Assembly (NCBI GenBank): GCA_021648485.1
Contig: JAKISS010000006.1
Location: forward strand, 1-64,000
Direction: 5' to 3'
From: Gammaproteobacteria bacterium
Lineage (GTDB): Bacteria > Pseudomonadota > Gammaproteobacteria > SZUA-152
Length of the DNA stretch: 64,000 bases
Part shown: positions 2,093 to 42,612 of the stretch, piece after piece
Layout of the letters: each line of letters begins with the position of its first letter
How positions within the stretch are numbered: the stretch's first letter is position 1
Program-made: the position numbers and the translations under genes
The notes under the pieces: model-generated
Database searches by the model: none
What the model was told of the DNA's origin: nothing
Seen by the model: the letters and a program-made list of their open reading frames with translations, nothing else

Positions 2093-2761
2093 CTAAACAA
2101 TTTCTTTTATTACCTGGAAGGCTTCGGCAGCCTGGCAGCCTGCGGCAGCTCCCCTTACTTTTGCAAGTGCGATAATGGCATCCCGACTGCGGGGAAAGGG
2201 AAAGTCATCCAGCTCATTTTCGTAGAGAGTGAGTATTTCCAGTTTTTTTTCCAGATATGTGCTGATGTCTACATAGCGCTGAACAGGCATTCCCGAACCA
2301 TGTGGCGACAGAGAAAAATCAGTTTCCGAGGGTGTTTCATAACCATAAATACGGCGCACACCGGGGTAACGAAACCATTTGCTACAGGCTTTGGCGGCTG
2401 TGGCTACTATGCCATGATCGGTGTGTATGTCGTCAACATAAGGAATGTAAAGGGTGTCAGGGTGCACCGCATTGACAACGTCACCCAGTGCGGTGATGAT
2501 GTCACCCATAGGGAGAGTGTCAAGACGGGTAGTGGGCAGCCCGAGTTCATGGCAGGCGGCAAACCCTGTGGCTTTATAGACTTGAGCAATCTGCCTGGAG
2601 CGGTACTGAATGGTGTCGTGGTCATAGCCGTGTTGTTCATGCATGCAGGTGACAATCAGCCAGTGTACGGTATTGCCTTCTGCAATATGGCGTAGCAACG
2701 TGCCGCCACAGCCAAGTATTTCATCATCGGGGTGCGGGGCGATGACCAGAATAATACTCAT
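2093..2761 (-). CDS. PIG-L family (LmbE-like) N-deacetylase
   Basis: This 222-residue protein has the N-terminal metal site APHPDDE (residues 8-14) and a downstream DIHTDH that would supply the third metal ligand, as in the GlcNAc-PI / MshB / LmbE deacetylase family. Those enzymes hydrolyse an N-acetyl group from an amino-sugar conjugate using Zn2+. I start at the ATG at 2761, preceded by AAGGA; the upstream TTG adds 13 unlikely residues. There is no signal peptide. It is divergent from an inositol-phosphate operon 1.25 kb away. Because several family members act on GlcNAc-inositol compounds, a shared pathway is possible, but no glycosyltransferase partner is visible. The substrate is unknown. 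Confidence 0.88.
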   Translation of the reverse strand: MSIILVIAPHPDDEILGCGGTLLRHIAEGNTVHWLIVTCMHEQHGYDHDTIQYRSRQIAQVYKATGFAACHELGLPTTRLDTLPMGDIITALGDVVNAVHPDTLYIPYVDDIHTDHGIVATAAKACSKWFRYPGVRRIYGYETPSETDFSLSPHGSGMPVQRYVDISTYLEKKLEILTLYENELDDFPFPRSRDAIIALAKVRGAAAGCQAAEAFQVIKEIV

Positions 2762-4009
2762 GTCAGAATATCCTTGTTGGATGAAGTCGCTACGGGGCAA
2801 AAAACAGTGATGCTCGAAAAATCATAAGATTACAGCATCATAACATCATCACTCGAATCAAATTTCAAGTAAAATCAGCAAACCCGCCTGCAATAATTCA
2901 GGCGTATTATTCATATTTGTGCGAATAACACTGGCAATAGAAAACAAGTGTAACCTGGGTAGCCGCAAACAAAACCCAAGTGTATTTAACTGTGGCTGGC
3001 CGTAGATGTCAGCCTGGTTTTTTATCGTTGTAAAATTGTCACTATTCAGCCTGATTTTACAGGTGTTAGCTTTTTTCTTCAGAAGGAATCAGCGCAGCAC
3101 CATCAAATATTTCTGTTTGAGCGTAAATTTGCTAAGGACAGGTGAAATTCCAGTTTTTTGCGACAGCATTGATAATGCGACCTTTATTCATTATCATGCC
3201 GCTGGCATTCGCTGGCATTCGTCAGCTTCACTGGTCATTCACGGGCATCCGTATTTATTTGCGTAATACTTCCCTTGAAGTATAAGTGGTAATGGGAACC
3301 GATAGATGACTCACCCTTGATCAAGGGTTTACGTATTTGAACCTTGGACTTTATGTGTTTGCCAAGAATTGCTCCAAGATAAAGCTTTCTGAAACAGTTA
3401 CTTGAAAATTAATACATATCGGAATAGCGTTTTTTGACCGACGCGAACAATAAATGCGTGGATGAAAAGTCAGAGGCCTGATTCTGACGACAGCCTTGGC
3501 AGTGCGCTTTTGTTTTATCCTAAATTAATCAGTTAAACCGTAGCGAGAGCGACTAAGGTGCGGAAGATAAAGCGTTTTTCAGGTTATTTTGGACGAAAGC
3601 GTATCACCCATACGGTGAGTTCAGCATGTTCTGAAAAATGCTTTAGATTCTGTGCCTTAGGCGCTCGCAGTAGATTTAACTGATTAATTTAGGTTTATGT
3701 ACGGAAAGGTAGTGAATAAACACATTTCTGCCGAAGTGTGTGACTTGGAACTGCACGAGAACAAATACGGTGTGGATTGCGGCGCATAACTCATTCAATA
3801 GAGATCCCGGCTATTCCAGCGATTTATGAGGTGCCGACTGTCTTGAAAAACATGGATAACTACCTGGATGGGAGCTGGGAGAAATTTGAACAGTGAATCA
3901 GGAATACTATCGGCTCGGCCTTATTGCAGAACGACATCAAAGAGAACAAGGGAGGTTTTCCAGAGAAAAATGCTTTCATTAAATGAAAATAATAGGAGAT
4001 ATAAAATAT
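2762..4009. other. 1.25-kb intergenic region between divergent genes, with a MITE
   Basis: No supported gene is present. The ORF at 3006-3266 lacks a ribosome-binding site and recognisable content. A well-formed 175-bp MITE sits at 3519-3693. Downstream of it an open frame without a usable start codon runs to about 3896 and ends KNMDNYLDGSWEKFEQ. It could be the tail of a decayed gene, but I cannot name it. The ribosome-binding site of ino1 (GGAG near 3995) closes the region. Confidence 0.55.
3519..3693. mobile_element. MITE-like element with 19-bp perfect terminal inverted repeats
   Basis: The element begins CCTAAATTAATCAGTTAAA and ends with its exact reverse complement. Imperfect complementarity continues inward for about 40 more bases (both arms contain AAAGC[G/A]TTTTTCAG in inverted orientation). 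The whole 175 bp could fold into one long hairpin. It is flanked on both sides by TTTAT, consistent with a 5-bp target-site duplication. It has no coding capacity, so a transposase would have to act in trans. A small non-autonomous DNA transposon is the straightforward reading. Confidence 0.85.
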
Positions 4010-6499: not shown

Positions 6500-7067
6500 C
6501 TGCGCCAAGCAAAAAATCCGTGCAGTGATCGCCGGCTCGCGAGTGCCTGAAGATCCCGGTCACGCCGACAACACCCTGAAATGGCTTTTGCACCTGCAAC
6601 CGGATGTCGGCGTGGCTCTGCAATTAGCGGCACTGGCCCATGATATCGACCGGGCAATTGAGGAGGTCAAGGTACAGCGCGCAGATTTCGACGATTACAA
6701 CGCCTTCAAGGCAGCCCATGCCCGACACGGTGCGGAACTATTGCGCCCGATTTTAACCGCATGCGATGTGGCGCGAGATATTGTGGACGAGACTTGCCGC
6801 CTGGTAACGATCCACGAGGTGGGCGGCGACCCCGACGCCGATCTGCTGAAGGATGCAGACAGCATTTCCTATTTTGATGTCAACCTGCCTCTCTACTACC
6901 AGCGCGAGGGGTGGGCCGAGACCAAACGGCGATCACTTTGGGGTTATCAGCGCCTCTCCGCACGAGCGAGAAAAATCGTCGGGAACATTGATTATGAAGA
7001 AGGGGCGATAAACCGACTGTTGCGGGAAGTCATTCATGACAAATCGGTACGGCTGTATGGATGCTAA
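6486..7067 (+). CDS. HD-domain phosphohydrolase-like protein
   Basis: A 193-residue protein whose ATG overlaps the end of the preceding gene by 14 bases, so translational coupling is likely. HD-superfamily features are visible: a first histidine in DPGHADNTL (His26), the HD pair in LAALAHDID (His52-Asp53), and a later KDADSISYFDVN that could supply the last metal-binding aspartate. HD proteins are metal-dependent phosphohydrolases, often of nucleotides or phosphate esters. The position after ino1 and the IPCT/DIPPS-like fusion suggests dephosphorylation of an inositol intermediate. That is inference only; no inositol-specific residue can be recognised. Confidence 0.7.
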   Translation: MDSVDCAKQKIRAVIAGSRVPEDPGHADNTLKWLLHLQPDVGVALQLAALAHDIDRAIEEVKVQRADFDDYNAFKAAHARHGAELLRPILTACDVARDIVDETCRLVTIHEVGGDPDADLLKDADSISYFDVNLPLYYQREGWAETKRRSLWGYQRLSARARKIVGNIDYEEGAINRLLREVIHDKSVRLYGC

Positions 7068-36729: not shown

Positions 36730-37119
36730 TTACGGCAACTCAACTCGCTTTGGAGCTTGCCAGCCATCAGCACGATGTTCAACAATGACAGAGGTGTAAA
36801 TGCCGCCACGCACATTGAATTCACCCGTCAGGCGCATGAAACGCGGTGCGCAGGCGGCCACCATGTCATTCAATATCTGATTGGTAACCGCTTCGTGAAA
36901 GGCACCTTCGTTACGGAAAGACCACATATACATTTTCAATGATTTCAACTCGATACAGGACTTATCTGCGATGTATTCGAGGTTAAAGGTGGCAAAGTCC
37001 GGCTGTCCGGTTTTAGGACATAAACAGGTAAACTCCGGAATATCAATGCGAATAGTGTAATCGCGCTCCGGGTTGGGGTTGTCGAAGGTTTCAAGTGTTT
37101 TGCTGGGCTGGGTGGACAT
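36730..37119 (-). CDS. queF: NADPH-dependent 7-cyano-7-deazaguanine reductase
   Basis: QueF reduces preQ0 to preQ1 in queuosine synthesis. This is the short unimodular (B. subtilis-like) form of 129 residues. It has the catalytic cysteine and aspartate in [10 protein letters not shown], and [20 protein letters not shown], the combined QueF substrate/NADPH motif. Its presence fits with gluQ, which modifies queuosine in tRNA(Asp), elsewhere in the window. It is a single gene. Confidence 0.95.
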
Positions 37120-37282
37120 TAGTCAGAGTGTACTCATTTGGATGATTAACATGGCTTGATAAAACAAAGGCATACGATACCTGAATTAATGGTAATTCTC
37201 ACGGTTTTTGCCATTGCCACTGACAAGAACAATATGGGATTATCCGCAGCAATTAATTTCCCCCGTTGTCAGGAGAAAAGTC

Positions 37283-38296
37283 ATGCCCAGATTGCATTTG
37301 GTTGAACATGATATTCGTACATTGTCTGATTTTGTCGCTACACGTTGTCCCGAAATCAAGGAAGCGCAACGGGAAACCGCCCGCCAAGTGCTTGCAAAAT
37401 ACAACGGACGCCATCCTGACAACCCCTTTACCCTGCCCAATGATAGCCTGGTTGTCCCCGACAATCTGCCACAACGGCTACTCATACCCGCCACCATCAA
37501 TTTCACCCCCACCCTGCGGCTCACGCAGCCAGAAGTTAAAACCCTGTCTGCATTGCTGGCAAAATACAGTGCTGGAGAAATCCTCTCCATGGCTCAAATT
37601 GCCGATACACTGCCAGCCAGCGAAGATACGCTCAAGGCTTTTGCCGGTGGACTGCTGGGGGCTTCCCGGAGCCGGGGGAAAGGGTATCTCCAGGCACTAC
37701 AGGTGTATAACGACAGTCTGGTAGAGTGGAAAAACACACCCAAAGCAAAACGCAACAAGATCAAGGCAGAAAAAGTACAACCGGCCCATGACAGATTAAG
37801 CAAAGCCTACAAAAGCGAACTGCACAGCATGACCCCGCATGGGTTGCACCCACTGAAAGGAGCAAAGCAGGGAATGCGTCTGTTACGTGGCCGTCAAAGA
37901 AGCATCGAGCTGAGTAACACGGAAGAATCCCTACGTTTGAAACGATTCCTGAAAATGGCTCGGGTGAGTGCTTATGGGGCGATTATCATTGATGCAGGAT
38001 TGGTTGGACAAAAGGTGCAGCAAGCTCGTGACGCTGGCGAGAATGCGGAGAAAGTAGCATATGAGGAATATGGGGCGCTGGTGGTTGGGATATTGGGCGC
38101 GGGTTTCGCCACTGCCTTTCTTGGCCCAGGATTGCTCATTCTTACTGTGGCCGGGGGCGTTGGTGCATTATTGGGAGCAGAAGGCGGACGTTGGATTGGT
38201 GAATTACTCTATGAACAGATATCAACCTATGAAGCGGCGGTGCCTCCTGAACGGAAAAAACAATTATTATCTGATGCTGTATTGAGCGTATTGTAA
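37283..38296 (+). CDS. Putative pore-type toxin with Gly-rich membrane segment
   Basis: A 337-residue protein of unknown family. ATG 37283 (AGGAG seven bases upstream) is preferred over 37208. The N-terminal ~230 residues are soluble and basic (HLVEHDIRTLSDFVATRCPE ... KAKRNKIKAEKVQPAHDRL). A hydrophobic segment near SAYGAIIIDAGLVG follows, then a Gly-rich hairpin (ALVVGILGAGFATAFLGPGL, LTVAGGVGALLGAEGG) and a short amphipathic end. Soluble delivery region plus C-terminal Gly-rich membrane hairpins is the layout of colicin-like and type VI pore-forming effectors. A small membrane protein gene follows, as immunity genes do. The function is inferred from layout only. Confidence 0.5.
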   Translation: MPRLHLVEHDIRTLSDFVATRCPEIKEAQRETARQVLAKYNGRHPDNPFTLPNDSLVVPDNLPQRLLIPATINFTPTLRLTQPEVKTLSALLAKYSAGEILSMAQIADTLPASEDTLKAFAGGLLGASRSRGKGYLQALQVYNDSLVEWKNTPKAKRNKIKAEKVQPAHDRLSKAYKSELHSMTPHGLHPLKGAKQGMRLLRGRQRSIELSNTEESLRLKRFLKMARVSAYGAIIIDAGLVGQKVQQARDAGENAEKVAYEEYGALVVGILGAGFATAFLGPGLLILTVAGGVGALLGAEGGRWIGELLYEQISTYEAAVPPERKKQLLSDAVLSVL

Positions 38297-38317
38297 ACTC
38301 AAAAATAGTGATGAAAC

Positions 38318-38716
38318 ATGGTGTTTTCAACCGAAATTAGAGAGTGGCTTACACTGTTGCTGGCGTTTGGCATCGGTATTGGGGGGGTGGTGGGCATAAT
38401 TTTGCTCCCGGTTATGTATTTCCGATTGACTCGGAAATACGACCCCATGTTTCCCGATCATGCCAATCTTACCGATGGCATTGGAATACAGGGAGAAATC
38501 AACCGGGCCGGACGTTACATGTGGTGCATTATTCGCAGGAACTTCAGTCAGCGCAATGAGCGCATACGCAATATAACAGGAGGATATGATTTTCGTGGCA
38601 ATGCGTCTTTGTTCGATATCATTTTATGCTATTCGACGCTTTTTTTTGGTTCAGTTATGTTAATCAGCTTAATCATATTCTTCGTTCTTACAAAAATATT
38701 CGGCATCGATTTATGA
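38318..38716 (+). CDS. Small two-span membrane protein, candidate immunity protein
   Basis: A 132-residue protein with one membrane span near the N-terminus (LTLLLAFGIGIGGVVGIILLP), a basic middle (RRNFSQRNERIRNITGGYD), and a second span at the end (SLFDIILCYSTLFFGSVMLI, continuing LIIFFVL). It starts 21 bases after the putative pore-toxin gene on the same strand. Immunity proteins to pore-forming toxins are typically small polytopic inner-membrane proteins. No family is recognised, and a weak ribosome-binding site makes the start tentative. Confidence 0.55.
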   Translation: MVFSTEIREWLTLLLAFGIGIGGVVGIILLPVMYFRLTRKYDPMFPDHANLTDGIGIQGEINRAGRYMWCIIRRNFSQRNERIRNITGGYDFRGNASLFDIILCYSTLFFGSVMLISLIIFFVLTKIFGIDL

Positions 38717-38723
38717 GTGCCAA

Positions 38724-38924
38724 TCTGTCTCGTTCAGCGATGCCCTGTGCCTGAAACGATTCCTGAAAATTGCCCGGGTAAGTGCCTACGGAGCAATTAT
38801 CATTGACGCAGAATTCGTTGAACAAAAAGTACGGCAGGCTCGTGACACTGACGGGAATGTGGAGAAAGTGGCGTATGGGTCGATCATCGTTGCTGCGGGA
38901 TTAACCGGACATATTAGAAAGTAG
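38724..38924 (+). pseudogene. Duplicated 3' remnant of the putative toxin gene
   Basis: The frame ending at the TAG of 38922-38924 reads CLKRFLKIARVSAYGAIIID and continues EFVEQKVRQARDTDGNVEKV. It clearly copies residues ~230-275 of the intact gene at 37283 (LKRFLKMARVSAYGAIIIDAGLVGQKVQQARD), but ends early in GLTGHIRK, losing the Gly-rich hairpin. There is no start codon with a ribosome-binding site. Homology begins near 38745. It lies directly after the candidate immunity gene, as orphan toxin tails often do. Confidence 0.8.
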
Positions 38925-39078
38925 TGGTGGGTCAGCAATACAGGCGATTATGCTATCGCCCTGCCGTGATTTCGGATGTATTTGCATGGTCAATATTGTA
39001 CCATCGGCAAGGCTCCGGTATCGTGCCACCCTATCCATATTTCCCCGTGTCGTCACTCACAGAAGAGTCTTCAATAAA

Positions 39079-42000
39079 ATGCGTCTGAGCAAGATCAAAA
39101 TCGCCGGTTTTAAGTCTTTTGTAGACCCTACCACCATCCCCATGCCTTCCAACTTGATCGGTGTGGTGGGGCCCAACGGCTGCGGCAAGTCCAACGTAAT
39201 CGACGCGGTGCGCTGGGTGATGGGCGAATCGTCTGCCAAACATTTGCGCGGCGAGTCCATGACGGATGTCATTTTTAATGGTTCCACGGCACGTAAGCCA
39301 GTGGGGCAGGCAACGGTGGAATTGTTATTTGATAATACGGACGGCACCATTGCGGGTGAATATGCCCAGTACAATGAAATTTCCGTGCGTCGTACCGTGT
39401 CGCGTGACGGCCAGTCGCAATATTTCCTCAATGGTACCCGCTGCCGCCGCCGTGATATCACCGGCATTTTTCTGGGTACCGGGCTGGGGCCACGCAGTTA
39501 TTCCATTATCGAGCAGGGTATGATTTCACGTCTCATCGAGGCGAAGCCTGAAGACTTGCGCGTGTTTCTGGAGGAGGCTGCGGGCATTTCCAAATACAAG
39601 GAGCGGCGCAAGGAAACCGAGACACGGATTCGCCACACACGGGAAAACCTGGAACGTTTGAGTGATCTGCGTGACGAGCTGGGCAAGCAGCTTGATCGCT
39701 TGCAACGCCAGTCAAAAACGGCGGAAAAATATAAAGAATTCAAAGAGAAAGAGCGACTTCTTAAAGGGCAATTGATTGCATTGCGCTGGCGTGGAATGGA
39801 CACCCAGGCCGGTGAACGGGAAGCGCAGATTCGTGAACAGGAAATCCGCTATGAAGCCGCTGTAGCCCGGCAACGCGGCATTGAAGCCGAGGTCGAAAAA
39901 CTGCGTGACCAGCAGGTGGAATCCACCGAGGTATTTAATGAAGTACAAGGGCGCTTTTACAGTGTAGGTGGCGATATTGCCCGTATCGAGCAGTCCATTC
40001 AGCACGCCAGTGAGCGTCGTGCCGAGCAGCAGCAGGAGCTGGAAAATGCTGAACGCGGCTGGATTGAGTCCGAAACTCATCTGGCTTCTGATCGGCGCAA
40101 AATTGAAGAGTTGACCCAGACGCTGGAGATACTTCAGCCACAACTGGAAGAAACCGGTGCCCGTCAGGAGGCTTCACAGGCTGCCTTGGCCGAGGCGGAA
40201 CAGGCTATGCAGCACTGGCAGACGGCGTGGGATGAATTTACCCAGGGTTCTGCGGAACCTGCACGCAATGCCGAAGTGGAGCGTACCCGCATCCAGAGTC
40301 TGGAGCAGCAGTTTATTCAGCATGAGCAGCGCGTCAACCGTTTGCGGGAAGAGCAGCAACGGCAATCATATGGAGATTTGGAGCGGGACATTGCTGAACG
40401 TCTGGCCAAAGTCGAAGAAGGCGGTGAACAAACCAGTGAATTGCAGGCGCGTTTACAGCAACATCAACAGGCTATTCAGGACGTGCGGGAAACAACGCAT
40501 CAATTGAATGGCACACTCGATGAACAGCGCGGCCAGTTACAGTCCATGAAAGGCCGATATGCTTCGCTGGAAGCGTTGCAACAGGCTGCATTAGGCAAGA
40601 CCGAAGGCGAAGTGGCGCAGTGGTTGTCCGATAACAATCTCGATCAGGCACAACGACTGGCACAAGGGCTGAAAGTGGCCCCCGGCTGGGAACGCGCCGT
40701 GGAATGTGTGCTGGGCTTTCATCTGGAAGCTGTGTGTGTGGACGGTATGGATAGCATTTCGATGCAGCTTGCGAACCTCGAAAAAGGCAGCATGGCGTTG
40801 TTTGATGTTGCCTCCCTTGATTCAATCATGGCCAGTGAATCGCTGTTTGCCGCCACGGGTGATCTGGCCACCGCACTGAGCAGTCATGTCGAAACACCCT
40901 GGTCACTGGATGCCCTATTAGCAGGAGTGTATGCCGTGGATACACTGGCAGATGCGCTGGCATTGCGCCCGCGTCTCGCTGCGCATGAGTCAGTGATGAG
41001 TAAAGACGGCATGTGGATTGGCCCCAACTGGTTACGGCTGGCACAGGGTGTCGATGAAAAAGCGGGTGTGTTGCAACGCGAGCAGGAGCTGAAAGAACTG
41101 GCTCATGCTATTGAATCGTTGAGCGCCGACGTGGAAATTGCCGAAGCGCAACTGGGTGAAGGGCGTGAACAACTCAAAAACCTGGAAGCAGAGCGCGAAA
41201 CCGTACAGCGTGAATTGCATCAGGCCAGTCGGGCCCATGCTGAAACGCAAGCACAGCTCAGTGGTCGTCAGGCACGGCTGGAACAAATGCGCAATCGCAG
41301 TAAAAATATTGAACAGGAAATCGCTGAACTGGAAGGACACACACAACAGAATCAGGCTGACACCCAGTCTGCCCGTGAGCGTTTATCCATCTCATTGGCG
41401 CAAATGGGCAGTATCGAAGAACAACGTAATGTTTTGTCGGAACAACGTGATGTTCTGCGTGCCCGGCTGGATGAAACACGGGAATTGGCGCGCAATGACC
41501 GGGATATCGCACACGAAAGCACGCTGAAAAACCGCACCATGAGCACAGAGCTGAATGCCACAAAACAAAGTCTGGAGCGCATGGAGCATCAGCTTACCCA
41601 GGTGGGTGAACGCCGCGAAGCACTGAAGGCTGCACTGGCTGACAGCGAAGCACCGGTCGCCGGTATGAAAGAAGAACTGGAGCTGCTGCTGGAAGCCCGC
41701 ATGCAGGTTGAAGAAGAGCTGGCTGCTGCACGGCGCAAGGTGGAAGAGTTGGAACACGGTATGCGCAACCAGGATCAGCAGCGTCACCAGGTGGAGCAGT
41801 CTGCGCAGGAATTACGTGGTGCGCTGGAGCAGACCCGCATGGCCTGGCAGGAACTCAAGGTGCGCCGGCAAACGCTGGTGGAACAGCTCAGTGAAACGGA
41901 TTACACACTGGATACTCTGTTTGAATCCTTGCCGGAAGAGGCCACTGAAGAAAGCTGGACCGGGCAGGTGGAAAGTATAGCCACGCACATTCAGCGCCTG

Positions 42001-42612
42001 GGGCCGATTAACCTTGCGGCTATCGAAGAATTTCAGACCGAATCTGAGCGCAAGGAATATCTGGATGCGCAAAACAATGATCTTGAAGAAGCGCTGGACA
42101 CGCTGGAGAATGCCATTCGCAAGATTGACCGTGAAACCCGTACCCGTTTCAAAGAGACCTATGAAAAGGTTAATACCGGCTTCAAGGAATTATTCCCACG
42201 TTTGTTCGGTGGTGGTCATGCCTATCTGGAACTCACTGGCGATGATCTGCTGGATACGGGCGTTACGGTAATGGCCCGCCCGCCGGGCAAACGCAACAGC
42301 AGCATTCATCAGCTGTCCGGTGGTGAAAAGGCGCTGACCGCCGTGGCCATGGTGTTTGCTATTTTTCAGCTGAATCCGGCACCGTTCTGCATGCTTGACG
42401 AAGTGGATGCCCCACTGGATGACGCCAATGTGGGTCGATTCTGTGAAATGGTGAAAGAAATGTCTGAAAAAGTACAGTTTGTGGTGATTACTCACAATAA
42501 AATCACCATGGAAATGGCCAAACAGCTCAATGGTGTCACCATGCATGAGCCGGGTGTGTCGCGTCTGGTGTCTGTGGATGTGGATGAGGCCACGATGCTG
42601 GTAACCAGTTAA
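39079..42612 (+). CDS. smc: Chromosome segregation protein SMC
   Basis: An 1177-residue condensin subunit. The N-terminal head has LSKIKIAGFKSFVDPTTIP and Walker A VVGPNGCGKSNVIDAVRWVMGE. Long coiled coils flank a hinge around residues ~510-680. The C-terminal head has the signature HQLSGGEKALTAVAMVFAIF and Walker B FCMLDEVDAPLDDANVGRF. I start at ATG 39079; the ORF track's extra 43 residues are not part of SMC. Gammaproteobacteria with SMC often have zipA and ligA next. Here a porin gene separates smc from zipA, and ligA is not in the window. Confidence 0.97.
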   Translation: MRLSKIKIAGFKSFVDPTTIPMPSNLIGVVGPNGCGKSNVIDAVRWVMGESSAKHLRGESMTDVIFNGSTARKPVGQATVELLFDNTDGTIAGEYAQYNEISVRRTVSRDGQSQYFLNGTRCRRRDITGIFLGTGLGPRSYSIIEQGMISRLIEAKPEDLRVFLEEAAGISKYKERRKETETRIRHTRENLERLSDLRDELGKQLDRLQRQSKTAEKYKEFKEKERLLKGQLIALRWRGMDTQAGEREAQIREQEIRYEAAVARQRGIEAEVEKLRDQQVESTEVFNEVQGRFYSVGGDIARIEQSIQHASERRAEQQQELENAERGWIESETHLASDRRKIEELTQTLEILQPQLEETGARQEASQAALAEAEQAMQHWQTAWDEFTQGSAEPARNAEVERTRIQSLEQQFIQHEQRVNRLREEQQRQSYGDLERDIAERLAKVEEGGEQTSELQARLQQHQQAIQDVRETTHQLNGTLDEQRGQLQSMKGRYASLEALQQAALGKTEGEVAQWLSDNNLDQAQRLAQGLKVAPGWERAVECVLGFHLEAVCVDGMDSISMQLANLEKGSMALFDVASLDSIMASESLFAATGDLATALSSHVETPWSLDALLAGVYAVDTLADALALRPRLAAHESVMSKDGMWIGPNWLRLAQGVDEKAGVLQREQELKELAHAIESLSADVEIAEAQLGEGREQLKNLEAERETVQRELHQASRAHAETQAQLSGRQARLEQMRNRSKNIEQEIAELEGHTQQNQADTQSARERLSISLAQMGSIEEQRNVLSEQRDVLRARLDETRELARNDRDIAHESTLKNRTMSTELNATKQSLERMEHQLTQVGERREALKAALADSEAPVAGMKEELELLLEARMQVEEELAAARRKVEELEHGMRNQDQQRHQVEQSAQELRGALEQTRMAWQELKVRRQTLVEQLSETDYTLDTLFESLPEEATEESWTGQVESIATHIQRLGPINLAAIEEFQTESERKEYLDAQNNDLEEALDTLENAIRKIDRETRTRFKETYEKVNTGFKELFPRLFGGGHAYLELTGDDLLDTGVTVMARPPGKRNSSIHQLSGGEKALTAVAMVFAIFQLNPAPFCMLDEVDAPLDDANVGRFCEMVKEMSEKVQFVVITHNKITMEMAKQLNGVTMHEPGVSRLVSVDVDEATMLVTS

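Follow-up and report, generated by a model that had tools for sequence, protein, structure and literature searches.

Introduction

The hydrophobic hairpin of colicins A and B can carry immunity specificity. Pore-forming colicins act at the inner membrane, where a small inner-membrane immunity protein neutralises them (PMC9558359). Small membrane immunity proteins also accompany the Tme effectors, in which a DxxK motif precedes the transmembrane helix and whose Tmi partners are of the DUF1240 type, mostly with three to six spans (PMC7046647). In the T6SS arrays of V. cholerae, new effector-immunity modules are proposed to push old immunity genes downstream, and a leftover effector 3' end is possible (PMC5361080); in Salmonella, Rhs orphan tails have no start signals of their own, and recombination switches them back on (PMC3967940). 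As to loading, LysM domains have been reported to place type VI effectors onto VgrG (PMC10673891).

Here we describe a locus found in a 64,000-nucleotide stretch of gammaproteobacterial DNA (hereafter the window). A first-pass annotation had read it as a membrane toxin and immunity gene with a displaced toxin tail, and comparison with related sequences largely supports that reading. The locus is very probably a polymorphic antibacterial effector/immunity cassette with a membrane-inserting hairpin, a two-span immunity protein and recombining tails. Judged by its sequences, the family is a previously undescribed and unannotated one, belonging to a known kind of putative inter-bacterial toxin, and the window copy is a normal member of it, with one intact toxin, one immunity gene and one dead tail.

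Architecture of the putative toxin/immunity locus

Table 1. Features of the locus and its flanks, in window coordinates.
Feature	Position	Strand	Basis
queF, left flank	36730..37119	-	tblastn of product against congeners, 82-97% identity
Inserted block with the whole toxin/immunity/tail locus	37213..38989	.	DNA matches to congener queF-smc regions break off here
Toxin, 337 aa	37283..38296	+	AGGAG ribosome-binding site precedes the ORF
N-terminal module, residues 3-58, predicted beta-alpha-alpha-beta, possibly LysM-like	37289..37456	+	
Conserved helical core, residues 79-256, common to a second toxin superfamily	37517..38050	+	profile comparison
Near-invariant KVAYEEY motif, residues 257-263	38051..38071	+	alignment columns; paralogues switch tail and immunity gene here
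Gly-rich membrane hairpin, residues 264-302	38072..38188	+	hydropathy and indel analysis
Putative cognate immunity protein, 132 aa, two spans, class HANLTDG	38318..38716	+	hydropathy, pairing
Orphan toxin tail, degenerate, no start codon, no hairpin	38751..38924	+	stop at 38922-38924
smc, right flank	39079..42612	+	six congeners match its N-terminus along the full query at 91-96% identity

The two genes correspond to what had been described at first pass. The ORF and its hydropathy agree on a protein with a C-terminal Gly-rich membrane hairpin, which spans approximately residues 263-302, contains 12 glycines in 46 residues and displays GxxxG motifs; in the window it is the short form, without a four-residue insert before residue 278. 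The small protein encoded downstream shows two spans predicted by hydropathy, at about residues 9-38 and 96-132. Searches of Pfam, NCBIfam and PADLOC returned only sub-threshold chance matches for the proteins of the locus, and a PDB sequence search matched no entry, whether of a colicin or of any other protein. The AlphaFold2 model of the full 337-aa toxin was too poor for a fold search (pLDDT 44), and the absence of fold backing for pore formation counts against our preferred explanation.

The segment immediately 5' of the toxin (37213-37282) aligns in part, perhaps by chance, with the smc upstream region of one congener (G007). The idea that the toxin's upstream region is a duplicated smc promoter was tentatively dropped, the ribosome-binding segment being found again upstream of relatives elsewhere.

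A probable 1.78 kb insertion at the queF-smc site

Genomes are labelled G, with G000 the window's own, and loci L; the names queF, smc and mutM derive from reading translations rather than from a library scan. DNA similarity to congeners ends at 37212 and restarts at 38988-38990 (G009, G002 and G005), which delimits a block of approximately 1.78 kb; in G009 only about 14 nt separate the two matching flanks. The queF-smc site is empty in all seven readable congeners (G009, G002, G005, G007, G008, G010 and G011). Either the window's lineage acquired the block here or the other lineages lost it, and its presence in one of eight genomes favours acquisition.

Elsewhere in the same genome, the N-terminal part of a toxin paralogue lies after mutM (L090, G000:C56, 8739-10386). 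It continues into another copy of the mutM 3' end that has diverged slightly, a pattern resembling duplication of the neighbouring gene during insertion.

The orphan tail as a double remnant

The truncated copy of a toxin segment noticed at first pass is real: a 135-nt repeat (37929-38063 versus 38743-38877) is 81% identical and was recovered independently by whole-genome tblastn (E=8e-14). What that annotation missed is that the tail comprises two nested remnants. The first (38751-38877) is the equivalent of toxin residues 219-261; past EKVAY, the sequence jumps back to a second SAYGAIIIDAGLVGQ copy instead of entering the hairpin. The second, nested remnant (38871-38912) matches 37970-38011 with a score of 42, against a maximum of 28 among 300 shuffles. 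The repeat carries 13 synonymous and 9 non-synonymous differences, and with a dN of 0.10 against a dS of 0.65 we conclude that it diverged mostly as coding sequence. The orphan tail has no start codon; its reading frame comes in across the stop of the immunity gene, which is read in a different frame. As two nested remnants without a hairpin, the tail cannot encode a toxin alone; it is dead, left behind by two or more rounds of displacement. A further tail-like remnant past the last immunity gene is found in two related loci (L032, after 7440, and L045, after 1407).

Relatives, arrays and a sister superfamily

Seventeen related loci were found, all in metagenome-assembled Gammaproteobacteria. 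L032 and L033 carry arrays of the order full toxin, immunity, tail, immunity; L031 and L038 have short ones. The L032 array consists of a full toxin, immunity, orphan tail, immunity, orphan tail, immunity, full toxin and immunity. Start-less orphan tails occur in the window and in five other loci (L031, L032, L033, L038 and L041). Two leader types precede the core: a possibly LysM-like one in the window, L031, L032, L038 and L043, and, in the sister genus, an alternative one with two PGPLGIG repeats (L034, L035, L037, L039 and L042).

The core is shared with a sister superfamily of approximately 320-aa toxins (profile-profile probability 95.4, E=1.8e-8), which has its own leader, its own hairpin and another small two-span protein downstream, and which likewise forms tail-immunity arrays. 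Of 369 sampled genomes from the class, four gave matches to the family and nine to the sister superfamily; G000 and one of its congeners are included in both counts. A plasmid search gave no match for the toxin; it returned one distant sister-superfamily relative, on a Pseudoalteromonas replicon, adjoining a small hypothetical protein.

Sister-superfamily loci were recorded at L018, L019, L023, L025, L026, L028, L030, L039:7855-8814 and L130, the last with two tail-immunity units in tandem. The small membrane protein downstream of sister toxins is of the FGQ(I/V)TVRKLRKNPETK type. At L028 and L039:10676-12775, sister toxin loci lie near genes for TPS (two-partner secretion) domains (Pfam PF05860), and the L025 locus has similar surroundings; small lipoprotein-like genes are also close to the toxins of all three.

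Tail exchange at the KVAYEEY motif

Three paralogue pairs are near-identical in DNA up to KVAYEEY and then diverge, and in all three the downstream immunity genes differ. The two L032 toxins (L032a/L032d) are 100% identical over approximately 680 nt (2559-3234) and about 67-80% identical from 3279, with the motif at 3267. Within D100SM, L037 is 91-100% identical to L035 and 87-98% identical to L042 over the core before the motif (at 6634 in both comparisons); identity drops at 6648 and at 6640-6685, respectively, and is mostly 50-85% beyond. The sequence of the tail-immunity junction is common to the window, L033 and L032. The family therefore combines a conserved upstream part with an exchangeable C-terminal part, as in polymorphic toxins. 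The shared breakpoint and the arrays, both seen in relatives, strongly support the proposal that such loci recombine their ends.

Hairpin type matches immunity class

The first membrane helix of the toxin is either short or four residues longer before residue 278, and the immunity proteins fall into two classes, HA(N/D)LTDG-like and YxRI(I/V)P-like, that also differ by a two-residue loop indel. Among 23 adjacent pairs, 11 join the short helix to the first class and 12 the long helix to the second, with no discordant pair. Repeated toxin tails beside immunity genes had been taken for a polymorphic toxin signature, a view strengthened by this match in 23/23 pairs. Every tail column was scanned because the indel feature had been picked after looking: two columns within the indel are perfectly associated with immunity class, two more reach 0.81-0.83, and every tail column outside the indel stays at or below 0.51. 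Fisher's test of the indel against immunity class gave p=7.4e-7 (23 pairs), and in 0/500 permutations of the class labels did any column match the best observed association (permutation maximum 0.83), although both values overstate independence, the sequences being related.

Both immunity classes occur with both leader types, and within single contigs (L032, L033 and L038). Whole-tail toxin and immunity distances are not correlated (Mantel r=0.13, p=0.10), and the matching is for this reason claimed for the hairpin class only; at that level, the downstream immunity gene co-varies with the toxic part.

The N-terminal module and delivery

The N-terminal domain had been called unknown at first pass, and the toxin has no Pfam or NCBIfam match to a delivery domain (MIX, PAAR, VgrG, LysM). 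In the AlphaFold2 model of the first 104 residues, the elements are ordered beta-alpha-alpha-beta, as in LysM domains, with pLDDT of about 70-78 over residues 1-60. A Foldseek search with this model gave no significant structure match; among its 40 matches, several were LysM-bearing proteins or contractile-phage baseplate parts, and these had the best query TM-scores, approximately 0.3-0.4. The N-terminus may thus be LysM-like, and a role as a type VI adaptor is possible.

The window's genome contains six Hcp matches and one VgrG, the latter with DUF2169-like and accessory neighbours (Hcp/VgrG/eCIS loci L082, L083 and L085-L088). It also holds an eCIS-like locus with sheath, tube, AAA ATPase, DUF4157-like and LysM-containing genes; all these eCIS names except that of the sheath, and the labels DUF2169-like and lysozyme-like, come from reading translations and not from a library scan. 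In one locus (L086:405-3137, G000:C49), the genes after Hcp encode a lysozyme-like protein and two lipoprotein-like proteins that resemble each other, a probable effector with its immunity proteins. In five genomes (G000, G002, G003, G005 and G009), Hcp occurs alongside the toxin or remnants of it, and four of the five have VgrG.

Discussion

Alternative readings

Among the families searched, no complete delivery machine was found in the window's genome, which also counts against our explanation. One alternative keeps the same cassette and has it delivered by the eCIS of this genome, or by an unrecognised contractile system using Hcp and VgrG, rather than by a canonical type VI system. It draws on the eCIS-like locus described above, on the failure to find VipB/TssC, TssK, IcmF and TssF in any of the five genomes, of which G002 and G009 are 99% and 96% complete (G000, 86%), and on the sister genus, whose carriers of the other leader do have TssK and IcmF. 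Against it, type VI ancestry is favoured by Hcp, to which putative effectors are linked, and by VgrG, which has DUF2169-like and accessory genes beside it; the search of G005 gave no eCIS-type sheath, the only sheath match in G002 is of a different, phage-like kind, and LysM domains serve the loading of type VI effectors too (PMC10673891). On balance, we consider this route somewhat unlikely. A bolder proposal, to which we give rather little credence, is that specificity is set almost entirely by the four-residue difference in helix length, that two immunity classes with different loops recognise this difference, and that the leaders are fitted to different contractile machines: the possibly LysM-like leader accompanies Hcp, mostly VgrG, often an eCIS and no detectable T6SS core, and the PGPLG-repeat leader occurs in genomes with a T6SS core.

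The locus could also be a toxin-antitoxin-like or membrane-stress module acting inside the producing cell, as a small membrane protein pair carried in one cassette and scattered among housekeeping genes might suggest; the swapping of tail and immunity class, the two interchangeable leaders and the orphan-tail arrays fit secreted polymorphic toxins instead and make an intracellular role very unlikely. That no family database match was obtained would suit two unrelated membrane genes with a chance repeat, but the pairing recurs in 23 toxin-immunity neighbours on many contigs with their classes matched, which refutes this reading and leaves it a negligible probability.

Proposed mechanism and significance

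For the polymorphic effector/immunity cassette that we prefer, we hypothesize that the N-terminal module carries the 337-aa protein into a neighbouring cell, where the Gly-rich C-terminal helical hairpin would insert into the inner membrane and form a pore or leak. In the producer's membrane, the 132-aa protein would recognise the hairpin, mainly through direct contact with its first helix, and block it much as colicin immunity proteins do in the cytoplasmic membrane (PMC9558359), so that protection would extend to the matching hairpin class alone. Recombination within the conserved LKRFLK...KVAYEEY stretch would bring in new tail-plus-immunity modules, pushing the old immunity gene downstream, where it may be retained for protection, and leaving the old tail without its start.

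The family offers an unusually clear natural allelic series of near-identical toxins differing only in hairpin and protector, which allows a direct test of how a membrane immunity protein tells helical hairpins apart. It also poses a delivery puzzle within one genus, in which five genomes combine toxin or remnants with Hcp and none of the four T6SS core families was found.

Comparison with known systems

The window toxin is a 337-aa protein with neither Rhs repeats nor a TPS domain in Pfam, and membership of the CDI/Rhs systems was rejected; the family resembles these in its constant N-terminus, variable C-terminal toxin, start-less orphan tail by an immunity gene and recombination through shared sequence (PMC3967940). 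Like Tme/Tmi, it has C-terminal membrane segments and a small membrane immunity protein downstream (PMC7046647), but the toxin lacks the DxxK motif and the two-span immunity protein has no DUF1240 match, so that membership was rejected here as well. Pore-forming colicins share the pairing of a membrane toxin with a small membrane immunity protein (PMC9558359); the window toxin differs in having no receptor or translocation domains and no PDB sequence match, its model being too poor for comparison. Compared by description, Ssp4 is similar in that its pore-forming effectors are followed by a small gene, occur in Gammaproteobacteria and are often encoded at a distance from the T6SS genes (PMC12669606); no library family is shared with the window toxin. 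The displaced old immunity genes and possible leftover effector 3' ends of the V. cholerae arrays are likewise close to what we observe, but those arrays lie inside T6SS clusters, their effector types differ and their breakpoints vary (PMC5361080), whereas in the present family homologous tails differ mainly in one hairpin and switch at a single motif, orphan tails are kept between immunity genes, and the loci are scattered rather than placed beside T6SS genes.
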